Translations under genes and position numbers: made by a program | The notes under the pieces: model-generated | The model's input: the letters and a program-made list of their open reading frames with translations, nothing else | Told to the model about the DNA's origin: nothing | The model's database searches: none | Shown here: positions 1-11,988 of the stretch, in pieces | How positions within the stretch are numbered: the stretch's first letter is position 1 | How the letters are laid out: every line of letters begins with the position of its first letter | NCBI GenBank assembly: GCA_947382875.1 | Contig: CANDBG010000019.1 | Coordinates: forward strand, 1-38,792 | DNA length: 38,792 nucleotides | Source: an uncultured Oscillibacter sp. | GTDB taxonomy: Bacteria; Bacillota; Clostridia; Oscillospirales; Oscillospiraceae | Direction: 5' to 3'

Positions 1-1285
1 TGTCCCGGATGCGCTGGCGCTTGGTGGCTTTCAGCTCCTCCTGGAGGTCCGCCAGTACCGCCTCCAGGTTGGAGGCGCTCTGCTCCGTCTCGGCTACGTC
101 CTCGTCCTCTTTGGCAAGGCCGGCGTTTAACCGTTCCAGCATGGCGGCGGAGTTGTCCTTGACCTTTCGGACATAGATTTTCAGCAACTCATCTAGCTTG
201 TCCACCCGGATATGGTGGCTGGTGCAGCCCTTGAGCCCCCGGCGGTGGTACGTTCCGCAGCGGTAGGCGTCCCGGATGTCCCGGCGGCTCATGGCGAACA
301 TGGGGGCCCCGCAGTCACCGCACTCCAGGAAGCCGGAATAGACGTTGTCATATTTTTTCTGCCCCCGGTAATGGGCGGTGGACCGGCTCTCCCGTAGGGC
401 CCGGGCCGTGGCAAAGGTACGGTAGTCAATAATTTCCTGGTGGTGGTGCTCCAGGACGATATGCTCCTGCTCGTCCTGCTTGATTTCTTTCCCGTTGATT
501 TTCCGCCGGGCGTACTTCCCCTGCCGGAGGGTGCCGATGTAGAAGTCGTTGTCCAAAATCCCCTGCACCGTCACAATGGCCCAGGCGGGCTTGACGGAGC
601 GGCGGTATTCCTCTCCCGCCGCCTCCTTGCGGTCCCGTTCCGCCATACGGGGGGTGGGGATGTCCTCGTCAGTGAGCTGGTTGGCAATTTTTTTGTAGCC
701 CCAGCCGTCAATGTAGAGTTGGAAAATTCTGCGGACAATTTCCGCCTCCGTGGGAACCACCTCAAACTCCTGCCGCTTGTTGATGATGTAACCGTAGGGA
801 GCGGCGCAGATCCATTTCCCGTCCTGCTGGCGGCGCTTGATGACCGATTTCACTTTTTTGCTGGTGTCGGTAACCGGCATTTCGTTAATCAGGAATTGGA
901 ACTGGATTTTCAGCCAGTCGTCATCGTTGGGGAAGTCAATCCCGTCTCCGATGGAGATAATCCGGGCCCCCGCATCCCGGAGGTCCTCCAGCTCCACCAG
1001 CCCCCGGCTGTTCCGGCGGGAGAAGCGGGAAAAGTCCTTGATAATGAGGATATCCTTTTGATGGGACATCAGCTCCCGGCGCATGGACTGGTAGCCCTCC
1101 CGCTGCTCGAAGGTGTACCCGGAGCGGTCCCGGTCCTCATAGAAGGTCAGGGTACTGCCGGGAAACTTCTGGCGCACGAAGTCCTCAATAATGGCCTTCT
1201 GGTTCTCAATGGAGGTGTTGTCCCGGTCCAGTTCCTCGTCTACGGAGATGCGGCAGTATCCGGCGATGTTAAAGCGTTCAATCAT
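1..1285 (-). CDS. Large serine recombinase (partial, 3' end off-window)
   Basis: The minus-strand frame is open for 428 codons from an ATG at 1285 to the window edge, so the C-terminus is missing. The N-terminal resolvase domain (about residues 1-150) shows GYCRISVDEE, where the Ser is the expected nucleophile, then YEDRDRSGYTFEQREGY and the KDFSRFSRR motif. A recombinase domain follows (about 160-270), then a zinc ribbon near 305-345 (CGDCG, later Cys residues in YRCGTYH and KGCTSH) and the start of a charged coiled coil. This is the layout of the integrases of Tn4451/Tn5397-like elements, which cut and join attachment sites as synaptic tetramers. Its start overlaps the 3' end of the RhuM gene by 8 bp, implying translational coupling. 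No attachment site could be placed because one element end lies outside the window. Confidence 0.93.
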   Translation of the reverse strand, partial: MIERFNIAGYCRISVDEELDRDNTSIENQKAIIEDFVRQKFPGSTLTFYEDRDRSGYTFEQREGYQSMRRELMSHQKDILIIKDFSRFSRRNSRGLVELEDLRDAGARIISIGDGIDFPNDDDWLKIQFQFLINEMPVTDTSKKVKSVIKRRQQDGKWICAAPYGYIINKRQEFEVVPTEAEIVRRIFQLYIDGWGYKKIANQLTDEDIPTPRMAERDRKEAAGEEYRRSVKPAWAIVTVQGILDNDFYIGTLRQGKYARRKINGKEIKQDEQEHIVLEHHHQEIIDYRTFATARALRESRSTAHYRGQKKYDNVYSGFLECGDCGAPMFAMSRRDIRDAYRCGTYHRRGLKGCTSHHIRVDKLDELLKIYVRKVKDNSAAMLERLNAGLAKEDEDVAETEQSASNLEAVLADLQEELKATKRQRIRD

Positions 1286-2030
1286 GGGCTGGGGTCCTCT
1301 CCTCTCTGCCTATGTATCTGTTCAGGGTGCTAAGCCAGTTATTCATGTACAGGAGTTGACCGTTTTCCTCTGCGACTTCCGCGTAGTCGAACATCCCGTG
1401 AGAGATCGCTTCAGTGCGAGACTTTTCTGTACTGTCGGCCTTGGGCAGCAGGGAACTCCAAATCACAGTATAAAATGCGTTCGTGGTCTCGCTGTTTTTG
1501 TCGTAGTCGTAGCTGCACTGTTCAAAGATGTCGGCGATTTTCTGGTAGGCTCGGCGCTCGCTGGCCCGGATTTCCCGGATGCGTTCCAGCAATTCGTCGA
1601 AGTAGTCGCGGCCAAAGGGACGGCCGTTTTTCATCAGGTCGTCATTGAGGACGAAGCCTTTTTGGATGTACTCTTTCAGGGCCTTTGTAGCCCACTGGCG
1701 GAATCGGGTGGCCTTCTTGGAGTTTACCCGGTAACCTACGGCGATGATGGCGTCCAGGTTATAGAAATCCATGGTGCGCTTGACAGAGCGTCCACCCTCG
1801 TTTTGAACTGTTTCCATTTTGGAAACAGTTGCGTCCCGGTCAAGCTCTTCCTCTTCGTAGATATTTTGCAGATGCTTGGAAATAGCGGGAACATTTACAT
1901 CAAATAGTTCTGCCATAGCCTTTTGAGTCTGCCAAAAGGTCTCGTCCTTAAAAACTACGCTGACGAACTCTTTTTCTCCTCCGCTGTTATAGAGCAGGAT
2001 TTCTCCCGCCTTGCCGCATTCCTGGCTCAT
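1278..2030 (-). CDS. RhuM family protein, internally shortened
   Basis: The N-terminal two thirds matches the RhuM (Virulence_RhuM) family, a DNA-binding-like protein common on mobile elements whose molecular role is unclear. Typical stretches are FWQTQKAMAELF, NVPAISKHLQNIY, YNLDAIIAVGYRVNS and ATRFRQWATKALKEYI. Family members are usually about 330 residues; this one has 250. The family-typical middle of the C-terminal half is absent: FYTVI is followed by about 20 unrelated residues and then the usual DYAE-type ending, so an in-frame deletion is likely. The start is set at the ATG at 2030, preceded by GGGAGGGG at good spacing; an upstream in-frame start at 2063 lacks a ribosome site. The stop overlaps the recombinase start, so the two are probably made from one message. 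Confidence 0.82.
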   Translation of the reverse strand: MSQECGKAGEILLYNSGGEKEFVSVVFKDETFWQTQKAMAELFDVNVPAISKHLQNIYEEEELDRDATVSKMETVQNEGGRSVKRTMDFYNLDAIIAVGYRVNSKKATRFRQWATKALKEYIQKGFVLNDDLMKNGRPFGRDYFDELLERIREIRASERRAYQKIADIFEQCSYDYDKNSETTNAFYTVIWSSLLPKADSTEKSRTEAISHGMFDYAEVAEENGQLLYMNNWLSTLNRYIGREERTPAHD

Positions 2031-2083
2031 TGGTCCCCTCCCATCAATTTTAATTCTATTCAAGAACGTCGTTTACAGATAAT

Positions 2084-2112
2084 ATTGTATCATTCTTTGC
2101 GGTAAAAAGCAA
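2084..2112 (-). promoter_or_regulatory. Predicted sigma-A-type promoter for the rhuM-recombinase pair
   Basis: On the minus strand, TTGCTT (2112-2107) and TACAAT (2089-2084) are separated by 17 bp, with a TGA extension just before the -10 box. The RhuM start lies about 50 bp downstream. Confidence 0.55.
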
Positions 2113-2148
2113 CCAGAATTCCCGAACAGAACCGTGCGGTTTCACATC

Positions 2149-2186
2149 GCCCCCAAGGCCCTCCTCTGTGGGAGGGCCTTGGGGGC
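2149..2186. repeat. Perfect 16-bp hairpin after the small element gene
   Basis: GCCCCCAAGGCCCTCC (2149-2164) and its exact reverse complement (2171-2186) flank the 6-base loop TCTGTG. It lies just downstream of the 2195 stop codon and upstream of the rhuM promoter, so it could stop minus-strand transcription. No T-run follows on either strand, so it is not a textbook intrinsic terminator. Confidence 0.75.
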
Positions 2187-2194
2187 TTATGATT

Positions 2195-2455
2195 CTACCG
2201 GCACTCTCGCGTTTTCTGCTTCTTTTTCCGCTGGACCTCCTGCTCAGCAGAGCGTCTCCGGTTATAGAGGAGCAGTGCGCCAGTCTCTTCCTCCAGGTCC
2301 TGTGTCCCGGACAGGAACACGGCCACCATACATTTTTGCGCGGAGTAGTAGCGGGTCACCTCCCGCAGTTTTGCCTGGGCGACTGGGTCGGTCCTCTCCG
2401 CTTTGGTGAGCCAGACCTCCACCAGCTTGCTGTTTTCATGGGGATTAACTTCCAA
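2195..2455 (-). CDS. Small mobile-element protein of unknown function
   Basis: An 86-residue, charged, soluble protein containing KLVEVWLTKAERTDP, a VAVFLSG segment and an ALLLYNRRR motif before a very basic tail. From memory, similar small proteins occur between mobilization and recombinase genes on Clostridia integrative elements, but I know of no function. It starts with TTG at 2455; an AAAGGA sequence lies about 13 bases upstream, rather far. A perfect hairpin follows its stop. There is no membrane segment and no recognised domain. Confidence 0.6.
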   Translation of the reverse strand: MEVNPHENSKLVEVWLTKAERTDPVAQAKLREVTRYYSAQKCMVAVFLSGTQDLEEETGALLLYNRRRSAEQEVQRKKKQKTRECR

Positions 2456-2651
2456 ATGCGTGGGCCCGTCCTTTCTCTGATTTATGTTGGAAGTATTTTC
2501 CGTTTCTTTTGCGTTTCCTATGCGCGAAACGGAACCTATTTCTCAGAAAAAGGCAGAGCAGACGCGGGGAATTGATTGGCCTGTCTATGGTCGAAACCTC
2601 CTCTCGTGACAGTCTTGCCAATTTGAACGTTCCATGTTTGGTTCATTTCAC

Positions 2652-2708
2652 GTGGGGCATACAACCCCACTCTCCTGGATCGAGGCCCACACTGGGCCTC
2701 ACAAGGCC
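2652..2708. repeat. Cluster of three short palindromes between mob genes
   Basis: The 261-base gap 2456-2716 holds no convincing gene. It contains GTGGGG/CCCCAC (2652-2670, 7-base loop), GAGGCCCA/TGGGCCTC (2682-2700, 3-base loop) and GGCCT/AGGCC (2695-2708), which partly overlaps the second. They follow the stop of the downstream MobC-like gene. They could end mob transcription or be part of a transfer origin. This is where a relaxase gene is expected in related elements, and none is present. Confidence 0.5.
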
Positions 2709-2716
2709 AAGAAATG

Positions 2717-3070
2717 CTATTTTTGAGCCGCGAGCAGATAAACTTCCTCGCAGAGCTTGTCCGTCAGAAAAAGTATCTGCGCGACCGCTCTAGCGTCCAA
2801 CTCCTTGGTCCGCTGATGGCGGGTAATCTGCTGTATGTTGGAATAGATTTTGTTAAGACTTGCGTGGAGGGCGCGATTCAACTCTCGCGAACGCCCCTTG
2901 AATGGATCTTCGATGATCAACTTGCGGAAATAATTTGTGCTGTTCAGCGGAGTCAGTTTCATATATCTCTGTAGCTGCTGAAACTGGACATCCGTCATGC
3001 GAACGGCAATATTCCGGCTGTTGTCCCCCATAGGGCCTCGCACTTTCCGCCGTTTTCGGTTATGAAACAC
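2717..3070 (-). CDS. MobC-like relaxosome accessory protein (second copy)
   Basis: A 117-residue basic protein with an N-terminal ribbon-helix-helix-like segment (NIAVRMTDVQFQQLQRYM), then TNYFRKLIIEDPF and a helical C-terminal half (LNRALHASLNKIYSNIQQI). This matches the MobC type of mobilization protein, which binds near the nick site and helps the relaxase open oriT. The start is a GTG at 3070, with GAAGGGAT about 8 bases upstream; it overlaps the preceding mob gene by 11 bp, implying coupled translation. The relaxase normally found next to such genes is absent from the window, so the protein may act with a relaxase supplied by another element, or be a leftover. Confidence 0.75.
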   Translation of the reverse strand: MFHNRKRRKVRGPMGDNSRNIAVRMTDVQFQQLQRYMKLTPLNSTNYFRKLIIEDPFKGRSRELNRALHASLNKIYSNIQQITRHQRTKELDARAVAQILFLTDKLCEEVYLLAAQK

Positions 3071-3410
3071 GAAGGTATCCCTTCTTTCTCAGTGCGTAGA
3101 TATGTTCGTAAATCTCCATCAGAAGTTGGACCGTCCGCCGGAGCTCCTCCGCCGTGCCGTAGCCGCTGTTAAACTCCTTTGCGATGGCGTTGATCTCCCG
3201 GCCCGCTTTGTCCATAAAGTGGATCAGCTCCCAGGTTTCCTGCTCCCGGTGCAGTGTAGGGCGGTTCGTCTCCAGCTGTGTCATTAGCCATGCGTTGGCA
3301 GATAGCCCAGCGGCCGCACTTTTTTCTTTCAAAAGCCTGTACTCTTTCGCACTCATGCGGACGCAGGTGCGGTGTGTTTGATTGCTTATGGTCTTGCTCC
3401 TTTCTTTCAC
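3060..3410 (-). CDS. MobC-like relaxosome accessory protein (first copy)
   Basis: A protein of up to 116 residues with a ribbon-helix-helix-like N-terminus (TCVRMSAKEYRLLKEKSAAAG), then LSANAWLMTQLE and a conserved-looking C-terminal helix (DKAGREINAIAKEFN, LRRTVQLLMEIY), typical of bacterial mobilization proteins of the MobC group. It is the first gene after the palindromic oriT-like region and overlaps the next mob gene by 11 bp. The start is uncertain: the GTG at 3410 has no ribosome site, whereas AAAGGAG sits 7 bases before an ATA codon at 3389, raising the possibility of a rare ATA start that would give a 109-residue protein. Confidence 0.75.
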   Translation of the reverse strand: MKERSKTISNQTHRTCVRMSAKEYRLLKEKSAAAGLSANAWLMTQLETNRPTLHREQETWELIHFMDKAGREINAIAKEFNSGYGTAEELRRTVQLLMEIYEHIYALRKKGYLRVS

Positions 3411-3419
3411 AGCAATGGT

Positions 3420-3530
3420 ATTTTCCGCCAGTCGGCGGCATTGGGGTCAGGGGATTGCCCCTGCAAGATGCATTTTGACATCAAAATGCGATGCTTGCGT
3501 TCCCTTTGACGGAGGATTCTCTCGATTTTT
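3420..3530. other. Putative origin of transfer (oriT-like palindrome array)
   Basis: Directly upstream of the paired MobC-like genes are three nested-size palindromes in 65 bases: CCGCC/GGCGG (3425-3438), CAGGGG/CCCCTG around ATTG (3448-3463), and GCATTTTGA/TCAAAATGC with a 2-base loop (3470-3489). Inverted repeats beside mobC are the usual oriT signature in Firmicute integrative elements. The nick site cannot be assigned from sequence alone. Confidence 0.55.
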
Positions 3531-3594
3531 CTAGGGTTTTTTTGTGCTTATTTTCTTATCGTGACTCCAGCATTCTGCGATTCTAGAAAATTGT

Positions 3595-3622
3595 AAGAGG
3601 GTGTCATGTGTGACACCTTCTT
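3595..3622. terminator. Inverted repeat / possible bidirectional terminator after the ParB-like gene
   Basis: Arms AAGAGGGTGTCA and TGACACCTTCTT flank a TGTG loop; one position is a mismatch (a G-T wobble when read on the plus strand). The core TCATGTG-(TG)-ACACC recurs at 3662-3672, across the stop codon of the ParB-like gene. It could be a terminator or a pair of protein-binding sites. Confidence 0.45.
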
Positions 3623-3660
3623 AGCAATTTTTAGCCCTTTCCCTGAAAAAAATGGGTGCA

Positions 3661-4563
3661 TCATGTGACACCCTGCCCTGTGATTTTCGCCGGTAAGATA
3701 GTATTTTTGAGAATATCACCGATGGTTTGGAAGGTCTGGGCCAACTCATAGGACTCCTGTATGGAATCTTCGATTTCCTCCGGTTTCATGCGGGTGCCCT
3801 CTGTCCAATAGTGGACATTTTCTACCGATGGTGTCAGCAGAACCGCTTTTTCGTATGCTTTGCAGAAAAGAGCGGCAATTTTTTCTCTTTGATCTGCTTC
3901 TATATCGATTTGCTTCACTTCCCGCACAGCCGCTAGTATCTCAGCAACAGCATTTTCCTGTTCTTCCAACGGCAGTTCCTGCACAGCTTTCAGGATTTCC
4001 CAGCCGCGATTCACCGAAATTTCTTTACTGCTCAAAGCGTCTTTCAGGACCTGCGGAGCACGGTCTGTTAGCTGTGCGATCCGTCCCATGGTCTGTTCCC
4101 CGATCCCCACTGTTTGGGCCATCTCCTTACGGGTATCTATTGGACCATAGCATTTCGGCGAATTCATCGAAAGGTCCGTCCGACGGCCCTGACTGCTTTT
4201 GGCCCTTGCCTCCAACTCCGGTTTCAATTTCAGAGCGATTTGTCCCAGTTCCCAAAGGGATAAGTTTCTGCGGCTTTGCTGTGTGTCCAGCGCCCACTGT
4301 TTGGCCTCCAGCAGGTCTCGGAAAGAAAACATCAGCATTTTGAATGGCAGGCCGTGTTTTTCGCAAATGCGGAATCGGTTGTGTCCATCAATGATGATGC
4401 GCTCCTCGTTGATGATAATTGGGGAATAGTAGCCGTTTTCCAGAATGTCTCTCTCCAACGCAGAAAATTGCTCCACGATTAACGGTGGGAGTAGTTCTTC
4501 CATCTCCGATAGGACAACTGGCGTCAATTCGGAGCTTTTGTATTTGGTTTGTGTGTTGTGCAA
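3661..4563 (-). CDS. ParB-like (ParB/Srx N-terminal domain) element protein
   Basis: A 300-residue protein whose N-terminal third carries the ParB/sulfiredoxin-type fold signature: ALERDILENGYYSPIIINEE followed by IIIDGHNRFRICEKHG, equivalent to the GERR-type box of ParB. The central part (RKEMAQTVGIGEQTMGRIAQL) is a helix-turn-helix like the ParB DNA-binding domain, and the rest is helical. Such proteins on integrative elements act in partition or maintenance, or regulate element genes. No ParA ATPase gene is near, so classical segregation is unproven. The start is a TTG at 4563 with AAAGGA about 10 bases upstream. Nothing visible suggests a frameshift. Confidence 0.82.
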   Translation of the reverse strand: MHNTQTKYKSSELTPVVLSEMEELLPPLIVEQFSALERDILENGYYSPIIINEERIIIDGHNRFRICEKHGLPFKMLMFSFRDLLEAKQWALDTQQSRRNLSLWELGQIALKLKPELEARAKSSQGRRTDLSMNSPKCYGPIDTRKEMAQTVGIGEQTMGRIAQLTDRAPQVLKDALSSKEISVNRGWEILKAVQELPLEEQENAVAEILAAVREVKQIDIEADQREKIAALFCKAYEKAVLLTPSVENVHYWTEGTRMKPEEIEDSIQESYELAQTFQTIGDILKNTILPAKITGQGVT

Positions 4564-4979
4564 ATCACCATTCCTTTCAGTTTGATTTTTGAGCTTTCGC
4601 CGTTCTACCCAATCCGGTTCCTGACAGGCAACCCTGCTCGGCGCTGTGTCGTGTTTCTTTTCTCGGCTCGCTCGTTCAAACTGAAGTCATGGCAAACTCT
4701 CCCGAAAAGTATCTGATTGGACGGTCATTCAATTGTATGTAATTCAGAAATTTCCACACGCCCTGTGACAGCCATGATAACTGTAACGATGCCTGGCATA
4801 TCACCCAGCCCTTGAAAAAGCTGTCGCAGCGGTCACAGTCGTCACGTCGGGGCCGATTCCGAGGTTAGTCGAATCCTCCTTCCAGCATGAGTACGGTCGC
4901 TCTCGTAGCGGATGTAATTTCCTCCAGAGACTTCTCTGAAGGATTGCATTCATTCACATAGTATACTCCTTTCTACATT
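4564..4979. other. Intergenic stretch with no recognised gene
   Basis: This gap between the ParB-like gene and the regulator operators has stops in all frames and no domain-like translation. It presumably holds the promoter for the ParB-like gene, but I see no strong -35/-10 pair. Confidence 0.5.
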
Positions 4980-5026
4980 AAGCATAAATGCTTAGTTTTC
5001 TAAAATTATACTAAGCGCAGTTGCTT
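4980..5026. promoter_or_regulatory. Two operator-like dyads upstream of the Xre regulator
   Basis: AAGCATAAATGCTT (4980-4993) and AAGCGCAGTTGCTT (5013-5026) share the pattern AAGCR-N4-TGCTT. Their centres are 33 bp apart, about three helical turns, so two dimers would sit on the same DNA face. They lie between the divergent ParB-like and regulator genes, and the likely ligand is the Xre-family protein encoded just downstream. Confidence 0.6.
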
Positions 5027-5077
5027 TTGTCAAGTGTTTTTCACAAAAAGGCAAAACAAAAATATTTAAGTCCTCTC

Positions 5078-5106
5078 TTGAATGATCTAAACTTATCTGC
5101 TATACT
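5078..5106 (+). promoter_or_regulatory. Predicted promoter of the Xre regulator
   Basis: TTGAAT (5078-5083) and TATACT (5101-5106) are 17 bp apart, with a TGC extension before the -10 box. The regulator start codon is about 30 bp downstream. Confidence 0.65.
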
Positions 5107-5134
5107 ACTCTATATTGAAAATGAAACGGAGTTG

Positions 5135-5668
5135 ATGAGTATGGCGATAGGAGAACGAATTCGCTTTTTCCGCACCATGCGGGGCATGACTCAAAAATCT
5201 CTCGGGATGCTGTTGGGTTTCCCGGAGAAATCCGCCGATGTTCGGTTGGCACAGTATGAGACTGGAACTCGAACGCCAAAGGCGGATTTGACCGCTTCCC
5301 TGGCCCATACGCTGGATGTGTCTCCCAAGGCACTGGCGGTGCCGGATATTGATAGTTTTATCGGTCTAGCGCATACCCTGTTTACTTTGGAAGATGTTTA
5401 TGGGCTGAGGGTATGCAGTGATGCGGAGGGTGTCTGTTTGCGGATGGACTCATCGAAAAGCCGCGTTGCTGACGAGCTTTTCAAAATTCTGGCGGCTTGG
5501 TGTGAGCAGGCCTCCAGGTTGGAAAATGGAGAGATTACCCAGGAGGAATATGATCGGTGGCGGTATTACTATCCCGAATTTGACACCACTCAGCATTGGG
5601 TAAAAATCCCCTCTCAGACTCTGAGTGACACACTGGCAAGGTCATTTAAAGATAAACTGGATTCGTAA
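5135..5668 (+). CDS. Xre-family helix-turn-helix regulator
   Basis: A 177-residue protein. Residues about 5-65 form an Xre/Cro-type helix-turn-helix (GERIRFFRTMRGMTQKSLG, LAQYETGTRTPKADLTASLA, VSPKALAVPDI). The C-terminal part (LFTLEDVYGLRVC, CEQASRLENGEITQEEYDRW) is a helical domain that I cannot name. The start is the ATG at 5135 or the one at 5141; GGAG lies 3 or 9 bases upstream, which slightly favours the second. The frame is open further upstream to 5021, but the promoter at 5078-5106 rules that out. It is transcribed away from the ParB-like gene and probably represses one or both divergent promoters through the paired AAGCR-N4-TGCTT sites. Its 3' end meets the helicase operon at a shared terminator. 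Confidence 0.85.
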   Translation: MSMAIGERIRFFRTMRGMTQKSLGMLLGFPEKSADVRLAQYETGTRTPKADLTASLAHTLDVSPKALAVPDIDSFIGLAHTLFTLEDVYGLRVCSDAEGVCLRMDSSKSRVADELFKILAAWCEQASRLENGEITQEEYDRWRYYYPEFDTTQHWVKIPSQTLSDTLARSFKDKLDS

Positions 5669-5670
5669 GC

Positions 5671-5717
5671 AAAAAGAACTGGCCAGCTCCAACAAGGGAG
5701 CCGGCCAGCTCTTCTTT
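5671..5717. terminator. Bidirectional terminator between regulator and helicase operon
   Basis: A GC-rich hairpin (AACTGGCCAGCTCC pairing with GGAGCCGGCCAGCTC, with a small bulge) is flanked by AAAAAG on the left and CTTCTTT on the right. It lies between two convergent genes and overlaps the helicase stop codon. Confidence 0.8.
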
Positions 5718-7983
5718 ACTCATTCAGCCGTTGGTAATACGCCTCCAGCTTTTCGTCGCAGATTTTTTCTATTTCCACTTTTTCCCCTTTGTTCAGCCGC
5801 TTCCAAACCGTCTCATCCACCTGGATAATGCCAAGAGTTTTGGTGTGTCGGAGCATCTGCATATCCTCAAAGCGCTTGAACGGATTTGATAATATATTCC
5901 GCTGGGCCTCGCTGTTGGTATAGCCGCCTTTCGCAAAGATGCTGTTCGCCTTCTCTACCACCAGGCCGGCAGTCCGCCGCCCCTCGTAATAAGAGCGGAA
6001 GTAATCCGCGATCTCCGACAGCTTTACACGCCCCTTTTCATCCGCACAATGCAGCACTGCCTTAATCAGGACCGGCTTGTAGGAATAGCTCATATCCATT
6101 TTGCGGACCATGTCCAAAAACAGGTCTTTCCGGTTTTTGTCGTTAATCAGCGTCCAGCCATACTGTTTGGCATAGGCTTCCAGCGTTTCCTCCTTGAAAT
6201 ATTTGAATGTCCTGTGTTCGCTCATAGGGACAGACAAATCAGGAATCAGCTTGCCCTCCCGAACATAGCGCTCTATCGTCTCGCTCTGCACATTTACCCG
6301 GCGGACAAACTCCATCTGGGAAACCATACCCTCGGCTTCCTCCTGCCAATTAAAGATGTCCACCAGTTCATAGTCTGTTGCGTCAATCGGCCAGTCCAGC
6401 AGGGCGGCAGGTTTCTCCCGCCGGTCATAGAGCGCCCCTTCGGCCATTCGTTTGTCCCAGGGAGACAGTACCAATTCCCCCGCCCGGTACCTCCGCAGCT
6501 TGAACAGGCGGTGAAGGGACATGGGCATATTGTACTGACTGGCATTGTCCACGAAGTCAAAGACCATCAGGCTTTCCTTACCCTCGCAGAGCCGCATTCC
6601 CCGGCCAAGCTGCTGGGTATAAAGCACACGGCTCATGGTAGGCCGGGCCATGAACAGCACCTCGATCTCCGGGCAGTCCCAGCCCTCATTCAGCAAATCG
6701 CAGGCGCAGAGCACCTGTATTTCCCGGCGGACAAACCGGTCTCGGAACTCCTCCCGTTCCGCGCGCTTCATATTGCCGGACACCGCGGCGGCGGAAATGC
6801 CCTCCTTCTGGAACAGCGCCGCAATTTCCTCTGCGTGCCACACGGAGGCACAAAATACCACCGTCCGGCGGCCCTGGGCGTATTGAAGCCAGGTATCTAC
6901 GATCAGTCGGTTGCGCTCCGGCACATAGATTTTGGTTTCCAAATCCCGGATGTTGTATCGAACACTGTTGAACCGCACTTTTGTCAGATCAATATTGGTA
7001 TGGATGCGGATGCAACGCACGGGGACCAGTTCTCCCAGTTCCACGGCGGCCTGGATGTCCAGCTTGTGGGCCGTGTTCTTGAAAATGTCCAGGATGCTTT
7101 TGCCATCGTTCCGCTCCGGCGTGGCGGTCAGTCCCAGGGTGAACGCGGGCCTGAAAAAAGCAAGCGCTTTCTGGTATGTATCCGCCGCCGCATGGTGGGC
7201 TTCGTCGATGATGAGATACCCAAAATCATCGTCTTTGAAGCAATCCAAGTGCAGCGCCACGCTCTGAACACTGCCGCAGACTACATGGGCTTCCGGCTCT
7301 TTTACCGACTCCAGATAGCGGCCCACGGATACCTCGGGCCAGAGAGAGCGAAAGGCTTCCGCCGCCTGGTCCACCAGTTCCTGGGTATGGGCCAGGAAAA
7401 GCGTTCTGCCGCCCAGGCGCTTTGCGTCCAGGACTGCCGTCACGGTCTTGCCGGTCCCGGTGGCATGGCACAGCAGGGCAATCGTTTCTCCACGACCGCG
7501 CATCTCTGCCAGAGCGTTCAGCGCCTCCTGCTGGTGACGCTTCAGCTCCAGGCCAGCTCCATTCAAAGCCCGTCCCCGCTGGGTGGGGAGATAGTCCTCA
7601 ATCTCCCGAAGCCGGGGACGGCTGCCCAGAAAAACACGGAGCTCGTCCTTCACTGCCTCCGGCTGAAGCTGCATCTGCCGCACTGCCCAGCGGTAGACAT
7701 CCCAGCCCAGATAGACCATGCTGTTCTGCTTGAGAAGGTCGTCGTAAAATTTGCCGGAGGCCACCAAGCTTTTGTGATGAGAGCCCTCGTCGTCGATCTC
7801 AATGGCCACCCGCCGCCCGTTGTTTTCCAGAACAAAATCGGCATAGCGGCTGTTCTGGTAAATATCGTAGAAGTGGTATTGGGAATAGAGATATTGAGCC
7901 TTCTCCGCGCCGAAGGCTTCGCTGAACAACTGGATGAACAGATCCTCGGCAATACTGCCGGAGGCGGAACGGCGGGTACGCAT
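5716..7983 (-). CDS. SF2 helicase with N-terminal DUF559/Vsr-like nuclease domain
   Basis: A 755-residue protein. Residues about 10-110 resemble a DUF559/Vsr-type PD-(D/E)xK nuclease: SRYADFVLENNG, then VAIEIDDEGSHH, giving the Asp, Glu-x-Asp and His pattern. The helicase core follows: Walker A HATGTGKT near 175-182, IIDEAHH near 260, GLTATPER near 284 and QQLGRGMR near 475, as in type III restriction-like DEAD/DEAH translocases. The C-terminal third has a MerR-like helix (VNVQSETIERYVREGKL) and helical repeats of unknown role. The ATG at 7983 is chosen because GAGGTG lies 6 bases upstream; a GTG at 7992 falls inside that ribosome site. It is the last gene of a four-gene operon and probably moves on and cuts foreign DNA; substrate and partner are inferred. 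Confidence 0.87.
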   Translation of the reverse strand: MRTRRSASGSIAEDLFIQLFSEAFGAEKAQYLYSQYHFYDIYQNSRYADFVLENNGRRVAIEIDDEGSHHKSLVASGKFYDDLLKQNSMVYLGWDVYRWAVRQMQLQPEAVKDELRVFLGSRPRLREIEDYLPTQRGRALNGAGLELKRHQQEALNALAEMRGRGETIALLCHATGTGKTVTAVLDAKRLGGRTLFLAHTQELVDQAAEAFRSLWPEVSVGRYLESVKEPEAHVVCGSVQSVALHLDCFKDDDFGYLIIDEAHHAAADTYQKALAFFRPAFTLGLTATPERNDGKSILDIFKNTAHKLDIQAAVELGELVPVRCIRIHTNIDLTKVRFNSVRYNIRDLETKIYVPERNRLIVDTWLQYAQGRRTVVFCASVWHAEEIAALFQKEGISAAAVSGNMKRAEREEFRDRFVRREIQVLCACDLLNEGWDCPEIEVLFMARPTMSRVLYTQQLGRGMRLCEGKESLMVFDFVDNASQYNMPMSLHRLFKLRRYRAGELVLSPWDKRMAEGALYDRREKPAALLDWPIDATDYELVDIFNWQEEAEGMVSQMEFVRRVNVQSETIERYVREGKLIPDLSVPMSEHRTFKYFKEETLEAYAKQYGWTLINDKNRKDLFLDMVRKMDMSYSYKPVLIKAVLHCADEKGRVKLSEIADYFRSYYEGRRTAGLVVEKANSIFAKGGYTNSEAQRNILSNPFKRFEDMQMLRHTKTLGIIQVDETVWKRLNKGEKVEIEKICDEKLEAYYQRLNE

Positions 7984-7993
7984 GGATGTCACC

Positions 7994-8314
7994 TCAATTC
8001 TCGATCACTTCTTTTAGTAAGATTTGTTTCTCAAAACCGCCCCGCCGGGCGGCTTTTTCCTGCCGGATCCGCTCCAACTGCTCCCAGCTCCAGCCCCGGG
8101 CGTGGACCACCGCCCGCATGACCTCCAGCAGGTCGGCCAGCTCCTCCAGGGATTTGCTCTCCTGATATTCGGATAGCTCTTCCTCCAATTTGGTATCCAG
8201 CAGTTTCAGATATTCCGAATTGGTCAAGGTTTCTGTTATACAGGTTTTGCCGTCCGCTTCGATAATCTCGGGGATACGGTCGCGAACAAGTTTATTACAT
8301 TGAATTTTCCTCAT
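7994..8314 (-). CDS. MazG-like nucleotide pyrophosphohydrolase (COG4997 type)
   Basis: A 106-residue all-helical protein. It opens with KLVRDRIPEIIEADG, the signature of the COG4997 house-cleaning NTP-pyrophosphatase group, and carries the metal-binding pattern LEEELSEYQ followed by LEELADLLEVM. The family hydrolyses nucleoside triphosphates to monophosphates and pyrophosphate; the substrate here cannot be read from sequence. The ATG at 8314 follows GGGAGGG at 9 bases; an upstream TTG at 8332 overlaps that site. The gene lies 22 bp after the SF1 helicase and 10 bp before the SF2 helicase, so co-expression is very likely. A nucleotide hydrolase between two DNA motors suggests it acts on modified or phage-altered nucleotides, or depletes a pool on activation; that is inference. 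Confidence 0.88.
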   Translation of the reverse strand: MRKIQCNKLVRDRIPEIIEADGKTCITETLTNSEYLKLLDTKLEEELSEYQESKSLEELADLLEVMRAVVHARGWSWEQLERIRQEKAARRGGFEKQILLKEVIEN

Positions 8315-8336
8315 GGAAGTATACCCTCCCAAAAAT

Positions 8337-11159
8337 TTATAGCGGATCTCTGCTTAATGGGATAATATTCGTACACTTTTTGTCTTCATTGTAGTAATTT
8401 GTACAGCCATAAAAGACATTTCCGGTTTTCTGGTTCATTTTTACAATCATATAACCGTCTGAACACTTTGGACATTTAAAAATATCGTGTTTGTGTACCT
8501 TGTCATTGGTCATAAAGTCGCACACTTCTGCTTCGTTGGTACAAATCCAGAGATTCAGCCCGTAATTCTTGTTGAACTCGTATTTGAGGGGAAACCCGCA
8601 TATGGGACAACGCAGATTGAACTGATCTACCACCTGCATGTTGATTTTATCGGTATGTGGAATGCGGAAGTCTTGAATCAGTTCCACAAGAAACCGGGAC
8701 GGTCGGTTTTGGGGGACAGCGATGTAAACGCGGTTTTTTGTACGGGTCATGGCGACATAGAATAGCCGCCGTTCCTCCGCAAAGGGCATGCTCTTATCTT
8801 CATAGGTAACCAGCTTTATAATCGGGTCATCCTCGATCTGGCAGGGAAAACCAAACTTTCCCTCAAACATATTGATCAGAATCACGTTGTCATATCCCAG
8901 TCCCTTAGAACTGTGAGCCGTCATAAAGGATAATTTTGCGTTTGGGTAGCGGTTACTTTTGATGTGCCCGCCGGGCAGCTCTGTGAATCGCCCTGTATTG
9001 CAAAGCTTGTACCGATCATAATTGTATCGTCCAACCAGTAGGATGGAGCCGCTTTCGCCATACTCATCAAGAATATCTCCGATCATTTTTTCAACCTTGC
9101 CGGCCAGGGACTGCATGGGCCGGAAACTGTCGTCAAACACCTCCAAGACTATGGGATTGTCCAAATGCTTGGGAGAAATCAACTGTTTCCGAATTTGCGA
9201 AGAGTTTTTCTGGACAAACCCGCCAGCAATATCAATCAATTCCTGAGAATTACGGTAGGTATGGGTGATCTTTAATTCCGTCCCGGCGCCCATTAGCTCC
9301 AGGAATCGAGTAAACAGGGTAATATCAGAGCCGGAGAAGGCATAAATGGACTGCCAGTCATCTCCCACCGCCACAACTTTGGCGTTTGTGATCTGGGACA
9401 GCCGTTTGGTCAGATTAAATCGCTGCCGGGCAATATCCTGAAATTCGTCAATGATGATGTACTTGTAGGGCAGTTCGATATTCTGCCGCTCGATCTCCTG
9501 TAAATAGAAGTGGGCATCGTTGATCATATCGGCAAAGTCGATCTGATTCCTTCGCTGCAGTTCGGACTGATAGTGCTGGTAGACCTGTTCCGCAATGTCT
9601 AAAAACAACAGTGTTCGGGGATTGTCGGTCTTTTTCCGCAAAATAGAGAACCCGCCGGCATCATAGCCGGTCGTCTTGTACTGCTCAATAAAGTTCATCA
9701 TGAAGGAAATCAATTTATAGATATACTTGTCCTTTCCGGTCTCTACAATCTTCTGGTAGACCTCTTCCAGATTCCGGGGTTTCAGCACAAAGCCCTCCTT
9801 TTCCAAGCATTCTTTCAAATGCTCAAGGAGAGGACGCCGGTCGTGATAAAGCGACCATGTCTCCAGTAAGGTAGTCCGATTTGCTTTATGCAAATGGCGC
9901 TTGTCCCAGATGGATTTTTTGTATCGCGCCAGCTGCTGGGGCGTAAGCAGATTGCTGTACCAGCTCTCGGTCAGCGCATAGTGTTCAAGCCAGACGGCAT
10001 GCTCGCCCTGCGAAATGTAGAAGTCTGGTGTGTACTTTTTGTTTCGGGAGGGAGAACCGTAGGGATACACCCGCTCATATTCGTAATTCAGTCCGTTCAA
10101 GTAGAGGAAATTTGCAATTTGAACCTCCTGAATGGACCGCAGATACTCCCCGGTAATTGTTTTTACCTTTCTGGAGCGTTGCTGCTGTATTTTTTTCACA
10201 TATTCTCCAAGTCCGCTTTTCAACGTCTCAAAATTTTGCGCCGCCTTATAGAGATGGTATTGCTCCAGATTTGAGAACTGGAACACGTCCTCTGCCAAAT
10301 CGAAATAGTAGCCCAGAAAGAGCACCAGATTCCGCATAAGAGGCTTATTATAGAAAATGGCCTTTTCCAGCATCTCGAATATGATTTGGTAGGAGGAAAA
10401 ATTGATCTCCGGAGGCTCTGCGGAAAACCGCTTGACAATGTCAAAGGCAAAAGCATGGAACGTGCATATCTTGGCCGGGATTTCCAGCCCTTTGTTTATC
10501 CGGTTGCGAAGTTCATTAATGGCTTTGTTTGTATAGGAAATCACAATGATTTCTTCCGGATCAATCCGTTTCTTTTCAACCAGGTATTTTACTTTCGCCG
10601 CCATGGTAGTCGTCTTTCCGGCTCCTGCGCCCGCAACAAGGAGACAGTAATCGTCATCTGTGACCACAGCCTTGCGCTGTTCTTCGTCCAATTGGATATT
10701 AGGGTCAATATCCTTTAAAATAGAATCAAAATATTCTTTTTCACGTGTAAGTATCCATTCGACATAGTTTGTATTGTGGGTAATAATGTCATTGGATAAT
10801 GTACGCATTTTTTCCAAAAACTGTCTTAGTGCGTCTATATCTACCCGAAATACAGTTGCGTTATTACATACATACCGGAAAATCAGTGGATTTGTCATTT
10901 CGCGGGAATACGGTTCATAGGTTTTGCGCAGCTTTTCTTCATCTCGGTGGGATATGTAATGGTCCGCGGCAAAAAGGGTGATATAATCTCTGTCGAAAGA
11001 CAGAAGCAAGTTTCCTAAGTTTTTGTAATCGATCCCCTTGCTTACCGGAGTATCTTTCTGCTCTGTGGGAAAATATGCTGCCGGCAGCCCGCAATGAGGA
11101 CACATCTCCGCTCTATTTGAAATCGAATTTCCGCATTCGGGACATTTGATCAACGCCAT
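8337..11159 (-). CDS. UvrD-type SF1 helicase with zinc ribbons and an embedded nuclease-like motif
   Basis: A 940-residue protein. Residues 6-24 form a zinc ribbon (CPECG, CPHCG). The SF1 motor shows Walker A VAGAGAGKTTT near 175-185, ISYTNKAINELR, IIIDEFQDIARQRF near 568-581, AVGDDWQSIYAFSGSDI near 597-613, TAHSSKGLGYDNV and RRLFYVAMTRTKNRV. Between motor motifs, near 345-395, lies a PD-(D/E)xK-like arrangement (EVQIANFLYLNGLNYEYERV, YTPDF, WLEHYAL), so this could be a helicase-nuclease. The C-terminus has two topoisomerase-type zinc ribbons (CPICG with later Cys, and CPKCSDGYM with later Cys). The start follows AGGAGG with 7-base spacing. It is the second gene of the operon. Housekeeping PcrA/UvrD lacks these additions, which argues for a specialised accessory role. 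Confidence 0.9.
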   Translation of the reverse strand: MALIKCPECGNSISNRAEMCPHCGLPAAYFPTEQKDTPVSKGIDYKNLGNLLLSFDRDYITLFAADHYISHRDEEKLRKTYEPYSREMTNPLIFRYVCNNATVFRVDIDALRQFLEKMRTLSNDIITHNTNYVEWILTREKEYFDSILKDIDPNIQLDEEQRKAVVTDDDYCLLVAGAGAGKTTTMAAKVKYLVEKKRIDPEEIIVISYTNKAINELRNRINKGLEIPAKICTFHAFAFDIVKRFSAEPPEINFSSYQIIFEMLEKAIFYNKPLMRNLVLFLGYYFDLAEDVFQFSNLEQYHLYKAAQNFETLKSGLGEYVKKIQQQRSRKVKTITGEYLRSIQEVQIANFLYLNGLNYEYERVYPYGSPSRNKKYTPDFYISQGEHAVWLEHYALTESWYSNLLTPQQLARYKKSIWDKRHLHKANRTTLLETWSLYHDRRPLLEHLKECLEKEGFVLKPRNLEEVYQKIVETGKDKYIYKLISFMMNFIEQYKTTGYDAGGFSILRKKTDNPRTLLFLDIAEQVYQHYQSELQRRNQIDFADMINDAHFYLQEIERQNIELPYKYIIIDEFQDIARQRFNLTKRLSQITNAKVVAVGDDWQSIYAFSGSDITLFTRFLELMGAGTELKITHTYRNSQELIDIAGGFVQKNSSQIRKQLISPKHLDNPIVLEVFDDSFRPMQSLAGKVEKMIGDILDEYGESGSILLVGRYNYDRYKLCNTGRFTELPGGHIKSNRYPNAKLSFMTAHSSKGLGYDNVILINMFEGKFGFPCQIEDDPIIKLVTYEDKSMPFAEERRLFYVAMTRTKNRVYIAVPQNRPSRFLVELIQDFRIPHTDKINMQVVDQFNLRCPICGFPLKYEFNKNYGLNLWICTNEAEVCDFMTNDKVHKHDIFKCPKCSDGYMIVKMNQKTGNVFYGCTNYYNEDKKCTNIIPLSRDPL

Positions 11160-11195
11160 ATTTTCCCCTCCTGAAAATCTTAAACGTCCGTTTTT

Positions 11196-11915
11196 CTATA
11201 TCAGGCCAAGCCTTTTGAGCCTTTTCCGTACGGAGGATGTGTTTCGTTTCAACGTGACTGCAATCTCGCTCAAAGGTACATCTTTTTTGTATAGGTCTAC
11301 GAGGCATTCCTCCTGCGCCATAGTCCAGGGTTTTTGGGACAATTCCGCGTTCATATTTTCCGTTTCAATCACTGCGTCCAGGTTATCTATAATAAAGTGC
11401 TGTGCGACCAGATTGTAAACCACGACCTCGTAAGGCCCGTTGCTTCCGTTTCTTTTTTCAACCGATATCCCATTCTCAATTCCACTGGAGGTTGGATGCT
11501 TTGCTTTCTTCCCGTCAGTTGTTGTAGCCCACATTAACATGCCAATTTCAGAAAGCCAATTTACAATGCCGCTGTAAGAGAGTTTCCGCATATTTTCGCA
11601 GTCACACAGTGCATTGATTCTCCGGGCCACCTCGCTTGCAGAAATGGGCTTTTCAGAAAACGCAAACATGCTCCTTTTTTCAAATGGAACGCTGAAAGGC
11701 ATTTTTTCCTTCTTTTTTGATGCAGCTGGAGCAACTATGCCGCCATTGTCAATTACCCGGCGCAAAATGTCCGAAATAAAGAAGAAACAACGAGCCAGCC
11801 GAACCTGATTGATGACATCCCCTTCCGGTACCACCGTATCATCAATAGGGTTTATGCCATTTGCCAGTTTGTCCATATACGTCTTAGCGCGGTTCAGGGC
11901 CTCAAGCTCTGTCAT
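11196..11915 (-). CDS. Putative DNA-binding protein, first gene of the helicase operon
   Basis: A 239-residue soluble protein without a domain I can name over its first 190 residues. It begins with a helical region (LEALNRAKTYMDKLANGINPID, VRLARCFFFISDILRRVIDNGG), followed by a winged-helix-like stretch (ISASEVARRINALC, LSYSGIVNWLSEIGML). The last 45 residues look like a Myb/SANT-type or sigma-like helix-turn-helix (PWTMAQEECLVDLYKK, LSEIAVTLKRNTSSVRKRLKRLGLI). The ATG at 11915 follows AAGGAGG at 7 bases; an upstream in-frame start at 11939 has no site. It is the promoter-proximal gene, 36 bp before the SF1 helicase, and could regulate the operon or direct the helicases to DNA. Confidence 0.7.
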   Translation of the reverse strand: MTELEALNRAKTYMDKLANGINPIDDTVVPEGDVINQVRLARCFFFISDILRRVIDNGGIVAPAASKKKEKMPFSVPFEKRSMFAFSEKPISASEVARRINALCDCENMRKLSYSGIVNWLSEIGMLMWATTTDGKKAKHPTSSGIENGISVEKRNGSNGPYEVVVYNLVAQHFIIDNLDAVIETENMNAELSQKPWTMAQEECLVDLYKKDVPLSEIAVTLKRNTSSVRKRLKRLGLI

Positions 11916-11959
11916 GGTTTGCCTCCTTATTTCAATCACGACATTTCTAATACGCTGTC

Positions 11960-11988
11960 ATTATACATCGTTTCAGGCATTGCTTCAA
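11960..11988 (-). promoter_or_regulatory. Predicted promoter of the four-gene helicase operon
   Basis: On the minus strand, TTGAAG (11988-11983) and a consensus TATAAT (11965-11960) are exactly 17 bp apart, 45 bp upstream of the ATG at 11915. No comparable promoter is seen inside the operon, whose gaps are 36 bp or less. Confidence 0.7.

Follow-up and report, generated by a model that had tools for sequence, protein, structure and literature searches.

The operon and its four proteins

The stretch of DNA analysed here, hereafter the window, comprises all 38,792 nucleotides of contig G000:C19 from an uncultured Oscillibacter sp. It carries an operon of four minus-strand open reading frames (ORFs), which encode, in the order of transcription, a protein with a C-terminal Myb/SANT-like helix-turn-helix (HTH), a UvrD-type superfamily 1 (SF1) helicase, a small protein resembling nucleoside triphosphate (NTP) pyrophosphohydrolases (PPH) and a superfamily 2 (SF2) helicase-nuclease (Table 1). 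The original prediction for this DNA took the four genes to be a single, undescribed defence system. Here, we describe the four proteins and report that the conserved unit is the PPH-SF2 pair, to which the UvrD and SANT-family genes are optional partners in the window.

The layout originally proposed, one promoter and four closely spaced genes, is borne out by intergenic gaps of 10, 22 and 36 bp, by Shine-Dalgarno-like sequences ahead of the ORFs and by a promoter-like site about 45 bp 5' of the SANT start codon. This site is a consensus match only, and 14 sites of equal kind were observed in the region against 8.3 expected by chance. The SF2 stop codon is followed by a hairpin that runs into a T-rich stretch (z -7.1, equalled by none of 200 shuffles); it was found by comparing folding energies with those of shuffled sequences and is absent from the list of the consensus scan.

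Table 1. Features of the operon and of the mobile-element side of the window
Feature	Position	Strand	Evidence or remark
SF2 helicase-nuclease, 755 aa	5716-7983	-	ResIII 3.7e-32, Helicase_C 1.3e-15 (Pfam)
SF2 N-terminal nuclease domain, MTES_1575, Vsr-type	7609-7983	-	PF18741 1.9e-5, below curated cut-off
PPH, NTP-pyrophosphohydrolase-like, 106 aa	7994-8314	-	hhalign to HisE; Pfam matches below cut-off
UvrD/helicase IV-like SF1 helicase, 940 aa	8337-11159	-	UvrD-helicase 1.4e-48 (Pfam); optional partner
Endonuclease I-like insert within UvrD protein	10005-10151	-	Phage_endo_I 1.6e-4; excised stretch 8.8e-6; both below curated cut-off
SANT-family gene	11196-11915	-	C-terminal Myb/SANT-like HTH; optional partner
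Sigma-70-like promoter site TTGAAG-N17-TATAAT	11960-11988	-	10/12 consensus matches
Intrinsic-terminator-like hairpin 3' of SF2	5671-5714	-	18-bp stem, -34.3 kcal/mol
HTH gene	5021-5668	+	Pfam
RhuM	1278-2030		Pfam
Serine recombinase, cut by contig end	2-1285		Pfam
Mobile-element side, including an ORF presumed ParB-like and two presumed MobC-like	1-5668		Stretches common to L095 and L097

The fourth gene encodes an SF2 helicase, as predicted, with a nuclease domain placed ahead of the motor. Among solved structures, the motor fits 7clg best ('putative helicase', 1.4e-65), which we take to be SauUSI, and the matches listed for the protein include PADLOC mREase_IV (3.2e-49), helicase-core matches to PbeA and dnd_restrict_1, and the NCBIfam RadD model (1.5e-43, far below the model cut-off). 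The helicase motifs and the acidic nuclease residues are invariant across 22 aligned SF2 sequences, and the nuclease residues E13, D49, E62, D64 and H69 are invariant in 16; K179 is the Walker-A residue of the motor. MTES_1575 also matches the relatives L174 (4.7e-8) and L265 (7.3e-9), likewise below the curated cut-off, and PMC3710099 places this family among the Vsr-family nucleases. For the DUF559/Vsr-like nuclease first proposed, the Vsr part stands; DUF559 gives weak matches, and these in L174 and L265 only. Searched against the PDB by itself, the nuclease domain returned nothing credible. Searches of plasmids and phages with SF2 gave mostly helicase-core matches among those listed, together with one faecal phage scaffold that matches over 99% of the protein at 29% identity and in which PPH was not found. 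On the plus strand, a 690-aa ORF lies antisense to SF2 (6049-8121), most likely as a side effect of codon bias.

The assignment of PPH is weak. EExxE and ExxD are the acidic motifs of the MazG/HisE all-alpha NTP-pyrophosphohydrolase superfamily, and in an hhalign comparison of PPH with HisE the EExxE and E.AD stretches are paired (P 8e-4, probability 24%), which is about equal to the MazG-HisE yardstick (1.3e-3) and compares with 0.065 for an unrelated SANT control. The residues E46, E47, E50, E59 and D62 (numbered with one residue preceding Met) are invariant in 22 sequences. In Pfam, PRA-PH in the window (0.066) and MazG-like in a relative (0.0018 at best) both score below the cut-offs; PPH has the acidic motifs of the superfamily and no profile similarity above a curated cut-off. 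We place it only provisionally in an NTP-pyrophosphohydrolase-like family.

The two upstream genes are also of the kinds predicted. The UvrD protein has a helicase IV-like core (helicase IV model 2.1e-89, below that model's cut-off) and carries, besides the endonuclease I-like insert, two zinc ribbons; insert and ribbons were both missing from the original prediction. It scores with the GajB models of Gabija (best 2.6e-50), but it differs from that system in its insert and zinc ribbons, and the matches listed for the operon genes and two of their neighbours do not include GajA. The C-terminus of the SANT-family protein matches chain 2lvs (1.8e-5), Myb chains more weakly, and the PHROG regulator family phrog_323 (8.5e-8); its N-terminal region matches no Pfam family. 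Shorter versions of 115-130 aa (mini-SANT) occur elsewhere, with an N-terminal pattern that is alike by eye. A 957-aa PrimPol-helicase-like protein of another genome (L042:9709-12582) has a SANT-family gene one gene ahead of it, and in L036 the gene 3' of a SANT-UvrD pair (5090-5971) matches the PADLOC candidate PDC-S13 (4.6e-141). Among the matches listed in the library scans, those of SF2 and UvrD are to generic models or to the helicase core, and none of those of PPH and SANT is convincing.

Conservation of the PPH-SF2 pair

Conservation was assessed in the best 80 of 259 loci with SF2 relatives in named genomes, the nearest of which belong to Oscillibacter- and Flavonifractor-type gut bacteria. 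Two of the loci, L123 and L127, share a genome, and the set overlaps the family survey described below (L113 = L074). Cultured relatives with the pair include Papillibacter cinnamivorans DSM 12816 (L138) and Flavonifractor sp. An10 (L117). PPH was counted by tblastn; ORF calling sometimes chose an antisense ORF and lost it. A PPH gene lies on the same strand within 650 bp upstream of SF2 in 71 of the 80 loci, with a gap of at most 60 bp in 43, and the pairing persists after clustering of the SF2 sequences (36/38 clusters at 90% identity, 61/67 at 97%). The two proteins also co-diverge: their distances correlate with r=0.73 over 69 loci, a value reached by none of 2000 permutations, and the correlation of SF2 with neighbouring SauUSI-like proteins is 0.18 (19 loci, p 0.17). 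In a survey of 200 genomes of the family, including the window's own, SF2 was found in 12 genomes, in one of them as a fragment, and PPH, UvrD and SANT in 15, 6 and 27, respectively; ten of the 15 PPH-bearing genomes also have SF2.

The co-occurrence of all four genes, on which the original prediction depended, gives a different picture. Within 9 kb of SF2, the distance taken as near, a UvrD gene (additionally scoring at least 150 bits) is present in three of the 80 loci and a SANT-family gene in 15, and all four kinds are found together in two, so that the four-gene unit was rejected. Seen from UvrD, 13 of the 394 genomes of the order have a relative of it, and among 16 other UvrD loci, with flanks of up to 1.5 kb, an SF2 gene of the window type adjoins only that of G143; three more have an upstream SANT-family gene. 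Natural variants point the same way. L096 has the order SANT-UvrD-PPH-SF2 as in the window, but its UvrD gene (L096:7855-9666) is an in-frame remnant without approximately residues 125-477, including the ATP-binding motif; L100 has SANT-PPH-SF2 and no UvrD; and L113 has UvrD-PPH-mini-SANT-SF2. UvrD is therefore no fixed part of the unit. The GC content of the window genes (SF2 56%, PPH 52%, UvrD 45%, SANT 46%) sets UvrD and SANT apart from PPH and SF2, which is the same division as in the conservation counts. A single four-gene system, in which the SANT-family protein recognises a target, the two motors process and cut it and PPH removes nucleotides, would fit the one promoter-like site, the short gaps, the one terminator-like hairpin and the gene content of L096 and L113, but given the counts, the damaged or missing UvrD genes and the difference in GC content between the operon halves, we consider it very unlikely. 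At the position between PPH and SF2 that mini-SANT occupies elsewhere, two families of small genes were seen, of which one is DUF6998 and the other matches an Mrr nuclease weakly (L082:10691-11158 and L101:9531-9989).

Genomic neighbourhood and hydrolase partners

The PPH-SF2 pair often sits directly behind another defence system, namely Wadjet I, Dnd, GmrSD or SauUSI-NUDIX. In 42 of the 67 cases where PPH has 400 bp or more of upstream sequence, another gene on the same strand precedes it by at most 120 bp, and these leading genes include JetD (Wadjet I), DndA (Dnd), GmrSD-type, NUDIX and UvrD genes, with representatives identified individually and the rest via sequence clusters. By tblastn, the 80 loci contain JetC in 8, JetA in 8, SauUSI in 19, NUDIX in 19, DndC in 2 and GmrSD in 2, and NUDIX is also present at 12 of the 19 loci with a SauUSI-like gene. 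The defence character of the region and the enrichment near defence genes that the original prediction implied are both supported: at least one of 11 defence-related markers (NUDIX excluded; four of them, MkoA-like, PLD-like, Vsr and NucS-like, less established as defence genes) occurs at 33 of the 80 SF2 loci, compared with none of 17 other regions (261 kb) chosen arbitrarily by contig number, and at 25 of 72 when the eight loci that supplied markers are left out. In PADLOC, at 1e-25, 174 families matched 105 neighbour proteins (from 147, proteins longer than 1300 aa or past the residue limit being omitted) versus 7 families for 101 controls (105 drawn, four at contig edges dropped), counted as families rather than proteins and with controls from the same ORF caller, which may include spurious ORFs. 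In the window operon itself, no Jet, DndC/D or GmrSD component is among the PADLOC matches listed, and no HsdM or HsdS partner is among the matches listed for the four genes. A recurrent neighbour of about 1050 aa, which carried an HsdR label, suggested a type I restriction-modification system; this was rejected, and the protein is regarded as SauUSI-like because one member has the Pfam architecture PLD-ResIII-DUF3427. The 1051-aa neighbour in L094 has DUF3427.

This placement behind varied restriction systems, together with the RadD-like helicase core, could also mean that PPH-SF2 serves host DNA repair or house-cleaning after restriction by its neighbours rather than attack on phages. The patchy spread of SF2 across the family, the mobile-element neighbourhood and the restriction-type nuclease domain argue against this explanation, which we regard as unlikely; RadD has, to our knowledge, no N-terminal nuclease of the MTES_1575 kind.

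The mobile-element side lies left of the operon. Library scans of 3661-4563 named neither ParB nor MobC, and no model aimed at them was run; the names in Table 1 are our assumption. Parts of the same element backbone lie in the same order beside SF2 in L095, where the cargo at that place is Wadjet I-PPH-SF2, and in L097, where 1.9 kb separate SF2 from the PPH gene upstream. From this comparison, serine-recombinase elements of the window kind appear to exchange their upstream cargo while retaining SF2 with PPH. Right of the island, an M20 gene matches G571 and G575, but in a search for an empty site the DNA flanking this gene in the window does not continue in either genome, and the ends of the element were not found.

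Nucleotide hydrolases recur beside more distant SF2 helicases. A phylum-wide search with an SF2 profile matched 20 of 348 genomes at 1e-80. At nine distant SF2 loci a HIT gene adjoins in five (two from one genus), PPH in one and neither in three, and among nine matches to the motor only (L271-L279) PPH lies downstream in five (with HIT between in one) and is absent in four. Two of these five PPH-bearing loci were tested with Pfam and encode PLD-ResIII proteins with no DUF3427. The same five, chosen because PPH is present, served as seeds of a search for PLD-type SF2 helicases, which matched 75 of 398 genomes; in the best 30 loci, which were fetched, PPH and/or HIT is found on the same strand in 22, in all but one of them downstream, and without the five seeds in 17 of 25 (PPH 12, HIT 11, both 6). 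In one case, a single ORF directly behind a PLD-type helicase is a HIT-PPH fusion (L295:3854-4555). No match to PPH, HIT or NUDIX was found in the 261 kb of other regions or at 15 UvrD loci, from which L058 (G143), the sole UvrD locus with PPH-SF2, was left out. The hydrolase partners are interchangeable: more than one family fills the place beside the helicase. In L271, L272, L275 and L292, a small methyltransferase-like gene, named by eye, adjoins the SF2 helicase in place of a hydrolase.

The occupation of one position by different hydrolase families points to a shared nucleotide substrate, for which non-canonical nucleotides would be the simplest candidate given the type IV-like partner. 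A shared substrate would also suit a hydrolase whose target during infection is a nucleotide signal or the pool of free NTPs and deoxy-NTPs (an abortive type of defence), with SF2 as sensor or partner, and the PPH, HIT and NUDIX folds all include enzymes for signalling or free nucleotides. Weakly against this stands that the 25 listed of the 174 neighbour families include no signal synthase, and we think such a mechanism improbable.

A proposed restriction helicase with a nucleotide-hydrolysing partner

Our preferred reading, to which we give an even chance, is that PPH-SF2 forms a two-gene modular DNA-restriction unit with a nucleotide-hydrolysing partner. Its role would very probably lie in defence. 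SF2 would be a SauUSI-class ATP-driven motor with a Vsr-type nuclease, and DNA cutting by it is probable, the target being most likely invading DNA. PPH would hydrolyse nucleotides and, most likely, clear away non-canonical nucleoside triphosphates, either precursors of modified bases made by the phage or modified nucleotides freed from degraded DNA, so that these would neither shield phage DNA nor get into host DNA; that PPH clears modified nucleotides in this way is plausible, but we put it forward tentatively. The two genes often come last behind another DNA-targeting system, and in the window the SANT-family protein and the UvrD-nuclease, both optional, lead them.

Several likenesses to known systems bear on this reading. 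The SF2 motor core is that of the SauUSI clade of type IV restriction enzymes, as judged by mREase_IV and 7clg, but SauUSI has a PLD nuclease at its N-terminus in place of the Vsr-type domain, and a C-terminal DUF3427 recognition domain. A MutT gene adjoining SauUSI homologues has already been noted, in a figure legend of PMC7641849; as far as that legend goes, in these pairs, too, an SF2 restriction helicase has a small nucleotide hydrolase for a neighbour, and they differ in that the window and its relatives use PPH or HIT and another helicase-borne nuclease. MazG is predicted as a defence domain by DefensePredictor (PMC13092281), which likewise casts an NTP pyrophosphohydrolase as a predicted defence part, but the excerpt of that paper names no helicase partner. 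Among the matches listed from the open-licence literature, no description of the PPH-SF2 pair was found in titles or abstract openings.

A number of observations count against the preferred reading. PPH lies more than 1 kb from SF2 in two of the 80 loci and is undetectable in seven; none was seen with the relatives L174 and L087 (53-54% identity) or in G189 (L078); five of the 15 PPH-bearing genomes of the family have no SF2 match; and eight of the 30 PLD-type loci lack a hydrolase, two of them being cut at the contig end. SF2 also co-diverges with JetC (r 0.62, 10 loci) and NUDIX (0.67, 19 loci); co-inheritance with SF2 thus extends in part to other neighbours. The family call of PPH is weak, and of the MazG-like hydrolase first proposed there remain a weak HisE-type resemblance and the acidic motifs, the direct comparison with MazG (0.089) giving no support. 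The Pfam scan found neither DUF3427 nor another modified-base reader in the window SF2. Finally, according to PMC3874153, one polypeptide is enough for SauUSI to restrict modified phage, both in vitro and in vivo; a hydrolase therefore cannot be essential for such cutting, and its part there would not go beyond enhancement or self-protection.

A broader generalisation, possible but doubtful, is that SauUSI-class SF2 helicases, whatever their nuclease, form two-part systems with an NTP-pyrophosphohydrolase-like, HIT or NUDIX hydrolase, in which the restriction enzyme would destroy modified phage DNA and the hydrolase modified nucleotides, also averting self-damage from recycled ones. Nucleotide hydrolases near defence genes are easily taken for housekeeping enzymes and overlooked. 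Their repeated and interchangeable pairing with SF2 helicases suggests that a partner which removes nucleotides accompanies some restriction enzymes, and that PPH-SF2 behaves as a module that can be plugged in behind Wadjet, Dnd and type IV systems; it also offers a direct and cheap test of whether bacteria counter base-modified phages in the nucleotide pool as well as in DNA. If true, such pairs would provide their hosts with a two-pronged defence against base-modified phages.

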